The position numbers and the translations under genes are program-made. Shown here in pieces: positions 8,849 to 39,813 of a DNA stretch of 39,813 nt (position 1 is its first letter; every line of letters starts with the position of its first letter). The DNA lies in NCBI GenBank assembly GCA_017513095.1, contig JAFWDJ010000032.1:1-39813 (forward strand), read 5' to 3'. Source of the stretch: Clostridia bacterium (lineage in GTDB: Bacteria > Bacillota > Clostridia > Oscillospirales > RGIG577). The notes beneath the pieces are model-generated. The model did not search any database. It saw only the letters and a program-made list of their open reading frames with translations, and had not been told where the DNA came from.

Positions 8849-9031
8849 TGCCTTCCCCTCGGGGGGAAGGTGGCCGCCGTGCGGCCGGATGAGGGGCAGC
8901 GCCATCGGCGCGTGCGTCCTTATTGGCTCCCTCCCTGAGGGAGCTGTCTGCGAAGCAGACTGAGGGAGTTGCGCCCCCCAAAGGCTCCCTTGTGTAAAGG
9001 GAGCTGTCAGCTCTGCTGACTGAGGGATTGT
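8849..9031 (+). repeat. Three tandem paired-hairpin repeat modules
   Basis: Three different modules follow one another: 8849-8916 (CCTTCCCC hairpin, GGCCG hairpin, GATGAGGGG), 8931-8975 (GCTCCCTC/GAGGGAGC, GTCTGC/GCAGAC, TGAGGGAG) and 8981-9029 (GGCTCCCTT/AAGGGAGC, GTCAGC/GCTGAC, TGAGGGA). All share the plan hairpin, smaller hairpin, TGAGGG. No gene is visible in 8773-9061. Confidence 0.8.
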
Positions 9032-9061: not shown

Positions 9062-9831
9062 CAAAATAAGCTTCACCGCCAAGCATTTAACCTACCTTCC
9101 CCCATGCTCACACCTTCCCGTCCTGCTTCAACATCTATTCTTTTTTAGAGCTTTGCTCTAAAAACTCAAATCGCCTCCCGCGGGGGTTCTTTTGGAAACA
9201 AAAGAACCAAAATTTCCGGGGGAAATCGGCTGAGGCTCGCAGGGCTTCTTCTAAATGCAAGCTCTCATCAACGCTTAGCGCCGATTTCCCCCCCGTCCCC
9301 CTTTCTGCCACCCCAAAAAATCCGCAAGCGTATTTTTCGGGGGCCCCGGTTTGCCGCCGTCGGCAACATCGCATCATCGGAAGATGACGCAATCAAAATC
9401 AGACGGGCGCACGATGCGCCCGACACGGCGCGACCGATGGAGCTGCTTTCAGCGGGCGCGAAGTCTTGGAGCGGCTCGGCCGCGGAATCTGATTGGACGC
9501 GAAGATATCTCGAATGATGCCTCATGTCGAGGCAACTATAAGTATAAGCGTAAATTGCGCATTTTTGCCGTGGGAGAAGGCAAAAGCTATTGCGACGTAA
9601 CGCCGAGCGGAGAGGCCCGCGTGAGCGTGGCCGGGAGCGAGGGGCGGAGAGACGGAGAGGCGGCAGCCTCTCGGAAATTTTGCTGCTTTTGTTTCCAAAA
9701 GCAGGCCCCTCCGGCAGGAGACAAAAGTCTTTAGAACGGAGTTCTAAAAAGAATAGATGTTGAAGCAGGACGCGAAGGCGTAAGTATAGGGGAAGGTAGG
9801 TTAAATACTTGAAAGTGAAGCGTTTTTTAAG
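9062..9831. repeat. Intergenic repeat family, copy 3 (complete long form)
   Basis: Both arms are present. The left arm (9062-9220) has the TTTAACCTACCTTCC end motif, hairpin TTTAGAGC/GCTCTAAA and GAAA-loop hairpin GGTTCTTTTG/CAAAAGAACC; the right arm (about 9660-9831) is its inverted relative, with CTGCTTTTG/CAAAAGCAG, TTTAGAAC/GTTCTAAA and the end motif GGAAGGTAGGTTAAA. The interior holds GGAAATCGGC (9221-9230) paired with GCCGATTTCC (9280-9289), the GGGCGCA/TGCGCCC hairpin and a segment shared with 39225-39813 that keeps one reading frame open (see findings). No transposase is encoded, so it resembles a non-autonomous element. Confidence 0.85.
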
Positions 9832-39057: not shown

Positions 39058-39211
39058 AAAGCCTCCCCCCCTCGGGGGGAAGGTGGCCGCAGGCCGGATG
39101 AGGGGTTATTGCCTCCATCTCCGAGGGAGGTGGCAGCGCCGTCGGCGCGTGCGGTTATAAGCTTGCCTCCCCTGAAAGGGGAGGTGCCGAAGCGAAGCAA
39201 GGCGGAGAGGT
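39058..39211 (+). repeat. Tandem paired-hairpin repeat modules
   Basis: Three modules of the kind seen at 8849-9031: CCCCCC/GGGGGG with GGCCGCAGGCCGGATGAGGGG, then CTCC/GGAG-type hairpin with GGCAGCGCCGTCGGCGC, then CCTCCCCT/AGGGGAGG with GCCGAAGCGAAGCAAGGC. Confidence 0.7.
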
Positions 39212-39224
39212 CGTCTCTCAAGCT

Positions 39225-39813
39225 CAAAATAAGCATCACGGTCAAGCATTTAACCTATCTTCGCGCTTATTTTAAGCCTCACATCCTGCTTTATCATTTT
39301 TCTTTTTAGAGCTCTGCTCTAAAGACTCAAATCGCCTCCCGCGGGGGTTCTTTTGGAAACAAAAGAACCAAAATTTCCGAGAGGCCGCAGCCTCTCCGTC
39401 TCTCCGCTCCTCGCTCCCGGCCACGCTCACGCGGGCCTCTCCGCTCGGCGTTACTTCGCCATATCTTTAATACTTCTCCTTCGAATAAAGGCGCAATTTG
39501 CGCTAATACTTATAGTTGCCTCGATATGAGGCATCATTCGAGATATCCTCGCGTTCAATTAAATTCCGCGGCCGAGCCGCTCCAAGTCTTCGCGCCCGCT
39601 GGCAGTTGCTTTCAGCAAAACAATGCATCCCCCATCGGCCAAGCCGTGTCGGGCGCATCGTGCGCCCGTCTGATTCTGATTGCGTCATCTTCCGATGATG
39701 AATGACGTCGACGGCGGCAAAAAACATGGGGGACGGGGGGAAATCGGCGCTAAGCGCTGATGTGAGCTTGCATTTAGAAGAAGTCCCGCGAGCCTCAGCC
39801 GATTTCCCCCTCA
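39225..39813. repeat. Intergenic repeat family, copy 4 (long form, cut by window end)
   Basis: The arm (39225-39378: TTTAACCTATCTTC, TTTAGAGC/GCTCTAAA, GGTTCTTTTG/CAAAAGAACC with GAAA loop), the interior shared with 9440-9660 in inverse orientation, the TGCGCCCG hairpin and the AAATCGGC/GCCGATTT pair are present; the second arm lies beyond the window. Compared with copy 3 it is inverted and has a 21-base insertion near 39610. Confidence 0.85.

Follow-up and report, generated by a model that had tools for sequence, protein, structure and literature searches.

A gut bacterium of the Clostridia (genome G000; 2.0 Mb, 45 contigs) carries an abundant family of long repeats, and both the repeat and the compensatory changes in its hairpins are real. 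The repeats share one architecture, lie between genes, keep their pairing with changed letters in three species, show the same strand bias in both of their arms and occupy some positions that are common to different species. We favor, with moderate confidence, the explanation that long structured repeats of modular make-up were amplified between the genes of this genus, with the outward strand folding, and that they would play a role as elements of transcripts. The window analyzed here is contig C38 of this genome, a stretch of 39,813 nucleotides.

The preliminary description had placed four copies in the window at 92-427, 1972-2302, 9062-9831 and 39225-39813, and inspection of the sequence gave the same coordinates. 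The four copies contain five arms (92-245, 2149-2302, 9062-9218, 9673-9831, and 39225-39379). The copy at 92-427, delimited from a module map and genome-wide matches, is a half element of the alpha type composed of an ARM (92-245) and the modules i (249-327) and mid (334-427), whose folding strand, read mid-i-ARM, is the minus strand. The copy at 1972-2302 is also an alpha-type half element with the plus strand as folding strand (mid 1980-2040, i 2067-2147, ARM 2149-2302). The copy at 9062-9831 is a full element. Its left ARM (9062-9218, folding strand minus) has the stems GTTC/GAAC and TTTAGAGC/GCTCTAAA in arm direction and is followed by the 5′ domain of the alpha unit (9219-9435, minus), which consists of the modules i (9219-9300) and mid (9319-9435). 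Module ii (9449-9672, plus), conserved in each of the genus's three species, is the 5′ domain of the beta unit (ii-ARM), and the right ARM (9673-9831) has the plus strand as folding strand. The hairpin GGGCGCA-CGA-TGCGCCC is located at 9405-9421 within module mid of this element. The copy at 39225-39813 on the minus strand is an incomplete full element, as the contig ends inside it (ARM 39225-39379, ii 39380-39601, mid 39643-39721, i 39729-39809). The neighbors of the window copies include rlmH (SPOUT methyltransferase) and genes for a metallo-beta-lactamase-fold protein, an EPSP-synthase-family protein, a response regulator, a BadF/DUF2229 CoA-activase, a cupin and an M24 peptidase.

In the entire genome, the repeat is far beyond chance: 77 exact TTTTGGAAACAAAA hairpins were found, compared to 0 for a control pattern read backwards. 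These hairpins fall in about 60 intergenic elements, and a single module order, ARM – i – mid – ii – inverted ARM, holds over the 60-odd loci. Full elements measure about 700-770 bp and half elements (ARM-i-mid or ARM-ii) about 330-390 bp; we refer to ii-ARM as the beta unit and to mid-i-ARM as the alpha unit, each read outward. No copy overlapped a gene called by a simple codon-based method, and an orientation bias to neighboring genes, such as a 3′-UTR element could have, was not found (tandem 14, convergent 9, divergent 7). A coding role for the ARM leader, which contains a short reading frame on the outward strand, was rejected, since the conserved block that follows is either 3 or 4 bases away, which speaks against coding.

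The outer side of nearly every arm adjoins one of four other palindromic repeats. In the window, T1 (CCTTCCCC..GGATGAGGGG) is present at 1845-1895, 8851-8900, and 39060-39105, T2 (GGGAGCTGTC..GACTGAGGGATTGTCAC) at 8935-9030 and T3 (CGGAGGCATGAAGGCATGCCTCCCTACG) at 20-62; the fourth, T4, is GAAGAATCTTAAAGC. Read outward, T1 and T2 resemble terminator hairpins. Another short palindromic repeat, CCACCCCAAAAAATCCGC..GTATTTTTCGGGGGCCCCGG, is located inside module mid (9311-9352) and elsewhere between the helices hd and he described below in about 13 arms (loci L050, L032, L079), as if there were a single insertion spot. Two stretches of 1.7-1.9 kb with 99-99.9% identity are each found on two contigs (C14/C19, loci L024/L030, and C24/C43, loci L038/L051), which are either assembly redundancy or a recent segmental duplication ending at a repeat.

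The helices were located on the plus strand of the 9062-9831 element. In module ii, helix hc (9614-9632) pairs GGCC at 9614-9617 with GGCC at 9629-9632, and helix hd (9655-9672) pairs GAGAGGC at 9655-9661 with GCCTCTC at 9666-9672. The right ARM contains the hairpin that had been noticed initially, he (9683-9704; CTGCTTTTG-TTTC-CAAAAGCAG on the folding strand), as well as hf (9709-9720; CTCC-GGCA-GGAG) and hh (9731-9747; TTAGAAC/GTTCTAA). Across species, hc reads GGCC/GGCC, GGGG/CCCC or GCGC/GTGT, while its bulge position and its GNRA-type loops on the outward strand (GTGA, GCGA, GCAA, GAGA, GGAA) are kept. Elsewhere, hd occurs as GGGGAGC/GCTCCCC and TTTGAGAGGC/GTCTCTCAAA, hf as CGCC/GGCG and CCCC/GGGG, and hh as TTAGAGC/GCTCTAA, TCAGAAC/GTTCTGA, and TTAAAAC/GTTTTAA. 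One copy (L032 1769-1956) contains hc plus flank as a tandem duplicate of 36 bp.

In helix he, the inner part TTTTG/CAAAA is nearly invariant and the lower stem covaries. All four states of its outer stem that had been reported as paired are present in the window arms, in arm direction as CTAC/GTAG (copy at 92), GTAC/GTAC (copy at 1972), GTTC/GAAC (left arm at 9062 and copy at 39225) and CTGC/GCAG (right arm at 9673), and the change in the neighboring stem was recovered as TTTAGAAC/GTTCTAAA versus TTTAGAGC/GCTCTAAA. The reported variation of a third stem (CTCC/GGAG versus CGCC/GGCG) exists too, but about half of the arms in G000, including two of the five window arms, have CCTCCCGCGGGG instead. 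Likewise, the GAAA loop described as fixed is so in the window but not across the family, in which the he loop on the outward strand is TTTC, GTTA, TTTG, GTCA or CCGT. Because the stem states in G000 are linked haplotypes (33 GTTC/GAAC, 27 CTAC/GTAG, 10 GTAC/GTAC, 3 CTAC/GCAG, and 1 CTGC/GCAG), the window alone holds only three to five independent events. The inner stem TTTTG/CAAAA was identical in 91 of 91 arms retrieved with a pattern that also permitted a CTGAG form; a few copies with a different inner sequence exist. The unpaired TTTTG ahead of the inner stem is also kept, and lower stem and loops vary. The proposal that selection had acted on the fold "rather than the sequence" was not supported in this form, as the near invariance of the inner stem CTTTTG/CAAAAG and of the preceding TTTTG means that the sequence is constrained as well. 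An invariant core on top of variable lower stems suggests a partner that may read the core, with pairing being all that the rest would need.

The sister species G001 and G002 carry ii-ARM units with about 65-80% nucleotide identity. A covariation test on a MAFFT alignment with mixed haplotypes was discarded, as it had gaps within stems and its significant pairs reflected haplotype linkage and not base pairs; it was replaced by alignment A1, which comprises 22 copies from G000, G001, and G002 and leaves out the haplotype that shifts the alignment. From A1, RNAalifold recovered hc, hd, he, hf, and hh without being given a structure, and 12 of the pairs had changes in both partners. In the named structure, 96.4% of the cells pair and 13 of 34 pairs show changes on both sides (58 cells), and sliding the partners by 1-3 columns cut the pairing to 32-52%. 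The covariation score was 0.249 compared to 0.105 in shuffled alignments, none of 500 being equally high. A home-made null model that keeps the FastTree tree and the substitutions per column gave a mean of 4.8 and a maximum of 9 both-sided pairs in 200 simulations, all of which were exceeded by the 13 observed, and 16 paired substitutions mapped to the same branch of the tree. In the tree-aware test on A1, no single pair was significant at E < 0.05, and for this reason the claim of covariation rests on the aggregate: covarying helices above a phylogenetic null, as expected of structured non-coding RNA, were found in aggregate only. The copies recombine, so that any single tree is approximate and linked blocks can mimic covariation. 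The idea that the hairpins are kept by compensatory changes thus stands across the three species, but not for the window alone, whose variants are linked haplotypes.

A stem change on one side only reads as G·T on one strand and as A·C on the opposite strand. On the outward strand, 47 one-sided changes were G·T and 8 were A·C; all eight A·C cells came from the G1/G2 haplotypes, which align poorly, and in A1 every one-sided change was G·T. For the he and hh stems, the ratio of G·T to A·C was 13 to 0 in alpha arms and 16 to 0 in beta arms; these cells cover about eight helix positions and represent a modest number of independent events. Since the one-sided changes are G·T on the outward strand and the hc loops are of the GNRA type there, this strand is the one that folds. 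The strand with the GAAA loop had been taken as the folding strand, but the bias favors the opposite, outward strand with a UUUC loop. A point against this view is that he has a loop of the GNRA form solely on the other strand. That the two inverted arms share this bias is difficult to explain by one DNA strand spanning the whole element, and two transcripts that diverge from the element would explain it more easily. The folded shape probably acts as RNA rather than as single-stranded DNA. Two promoter-like matches were found compared to 0.5 expected, which is barely above chance. G-U pairs have been used before to decide which strand folds, in the case of the L17 downstream element (PMC2864571); unlike the repeat family, this is a cis element found at one locus, that of a ribosomal protein gene.

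The model R1 of the family matched, besides the genus, 5 of 292 genomes of the order outside the genus (295 searched). In a phylum sample of 398 genomes serving as false-positive control, it matched G000 only and none of the other 397. The matches in G026, G057, G471, and G004 show the he/hf plan and were judged convincing, whereas those in G663 lack the he core and were judged chance hairpin arrays. A few further families of the order thus contain diverged relatives of the repeat. The genome G057, from another family of the order, has the invariant core on the lower stems GTAC/GTAC, GTGC/GCAC, GCCTCC/GGAGGC, and GCATCC/GGATGC. At three of its loci (L167, L169, L171), core hairpins stand in tandem, TTTTG[GCCTCC]TTTTG..CAAAA being followed by TTTTG[GTGC]TTTTG..CAAAA, with lower stems that differ and covary. 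A wide occurrence of GGTACTTTTG..CAAAAGTAC hairpins in different phyla was not borne out by pattern searches, which gave G000 only among the 398 phylum genomes. In GTDB, the exact pattern matched only in the sister genome RGIG577 from dairy cattle duodenum, which represents G002, and no match to the family was found in the plasmid and phage collections searched. On one viral contig, a structured, GC-rich stretch precedes a bare TTTTGGTACTTTTG..CAAAAGTACG hairpin (L163 10728-10757), which is not matched by R1.

Six neighbor-gene matches (72-95% amino-acid identity), which come from 5 of 17 loci retrieved for the sister species, link element loci of these species to element loci of G000, compared to one or two expected by a rough estimate from the share of the genome sampled. 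The copy at 39225 and locus L072 of G002 share the M24 peptidase gene, and in each it is the ARM that lies nearest to this gene. The family appears to be old and maintained by vertical descent.

The preliminary description knew of no named RNA family with this order of modules, and the comparison with Rfam bore this out: the copies of the genus had no match, and in the window only a tRNA reached the gathering level, next to weak sub-threshold matches. On the relative in G026, RF02937 (Clostridiales-2) scored 21.4 bits with an E-value of 0.006, compared to a gathering score of 58.6. RF02937 had no match in G000 in the phylum search, and none even at E ≤ 5 in the 9062 element and a copy at L071. 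Identity with the Clostridiales-2 RNA was rejected on the basis of the failed reciprocal search, in which R1 gave 0 matches at E ≤ 1 on 30 RF02937-type loci. The two are alike in that RF02937 is a hairpin-rich candidate sRNA of Clostridia, is multicopy (up to 11 matches per genome among the scored candidates) and has a GGGGC-GGCA-GCCCC hairpin resembling hd; it appears to be of a similar kind. At loci L172-L201, RF02937 behaves below its gathering score as an interspersed multicopy repeat in several Clostridia, unlike its label as sRNA.

With BIME/REP elements the family shares multicopy intergenic palindromic modules, a mosaic make-up, exchange between copies and units that are often back-to-back (PMC2817692, PMC3733652, PMC3116915). 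It differs from them in that its units are much longer (330-770 bp) and contain many different hairpins in a fixed order, and in that two of its three species lack a RAYT gene: G001 and G002 have no Y1 transposase gene, and the single one of G000 is IS200 TnpA-like. Those superfamilies are defined by a short palindrome with a GTAG or CGTC tag, and the hairpin of the present family is a different one; the tag is unpaired there, whereas CTAC/GTAG is base-paired here and swapped for other paired tetramers. Elements of the ERIC/YPAL/Correia type are about 100-170 bp or more in size and intergenic; their transcripts fold, and this can alter how stable the RNA is. They resemble the family as intergenic palindromic elements, but are single imperfect palindromes with inverted-repeat ends, whereas the family has several local hairpins in a row and either of two 5′ domains. 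The family is probably a new one among the interspersed hairpin-rich bacterial repeats of the BIME/ERIC/Clostridiales-2 kind and probably acts as RNA.

Three other explanations were weighed. High copy number, inverted ARMs, amplification in one genus and a nearly invariant hairpin core would also fit a non-autonomous, MITE-like transposon, whose ARMs would be ends for a trans-acting transposase, perhaps as single-stranded DNA hairpins, with the enzyme requiring the pairing. Close to copies in G000 there is indeed one Y1 transposase gene, the sole one of the genome (IS200-type, 156 amino acids, L057 2107-2577 on contig C31), while a search limited to Y1 found none in either of the two sister species that carry the family. 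This gene is located among several of the repeats and is AT-richer than its surroundings. It resembles an ordinary IS200 TnpA, and given its absence from both sister species we rejected mobilization by a RAYT. Near-identical full-length copies at different, unrelated sites, as expected of a MITE, were not found, the longest matches being redundant contigs or segments with flanking genes, and the outer ends are mosaic, without a fixed boundary, and merge into other repeats. A single-stranded DNA form of the whole element moreover predicts opposite biases in the two inverted ARMs, but both show the same outward bias, and several positions are common to different species. We consider a MITE-like origin rather unlikely.

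Pairing could also be a mutational by-product if template switching in palindromes (quasipalindrome correction) and gene conversion kept the arms complementary without selection. Palindromes are known sites of templated mutation, and the copies plainly swap blocks, their stem states being linked haplotypes. Such correction would be strand-symmetric and leave perfect palindromes; instead, up to half of the arms show G-T on one strand, the A-C form is nearly absent, the inner stem and the single-stranded TTTTG are conserved while the lower stems vary, and the hc bulge and GNRA loops persist across species, which makes this explanation improbable. Still less probable is the absence of any selection on folding, with covariation arising by chance and relatedness from a few linked haplotypes of an old repeat. 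This does hold for the window alone, it agrees with the lack of a single significant pair on the tree, and in the test on the poorly aligned set linkage pairs did come out as significant; but the aggregate count lies above all 200 tree-based null alignments, and it is opposed by the strand bias and by the recurrence of the same helices with changed letters, both in the three species and in a further family of the order.

According to the favored explanation, that of structured transcript elements, each half of an element is one unit with a variable 5′ domain (mid-i or ii) and a shared 3′ domain, the ARM with its leader and the hairpins he, hf, and hh, while hc and hd lie within ii. The outward strand folds into a chain of small hairpins, and a full element is two back-to-back units pointing away from each other. 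The folded form would be RNA, transcribed from the region's own or a neighbor's promoter. The near-invariant TTTTG, the CTTTTG/CAAAAG stem and the GNRA-type hc loops may be read by a protein or nuclease, and the lower stems might only need to pair; it is this reading of the two kinds of parts that leads to a transcript-element role. The copies could then act like ERIC/BIME-type transcript elements and affect the formation of RNA ends or RNA stability, and new copies might have arisen by duplications long ago and by recombination between copies. As a more tentative extension, the family might belong to a class of structured RNAs that is multicopy, evolves fast and extends over the whole order. 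Its recognition core (TTTTG, then CTTTTG/CAAAAG) would be invariant and its stems free to vary, and it would have spread to dozens of copies without a transposase of its own. Its back-to-back units would have one 3′ domain in common and exchange their 5′ domains, inserts and terminator-like outer repeats.

The strand bias in both inverted arms offers a cheap general test to tell RNA-like repeats from DNA-level palindromes, and the family is a clean case for asking by what means a long repeat can remain abundant while species diverge, although no transposase is obvious. A core constrained by sequence next to stems constrained by pairing only usually points to a conserved binding partner, which could now be searched for. 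Should the folded strand be RNA, a single bacterium may contain some 60 loci for structured RNAs that all belong to one family absent from Rfam.
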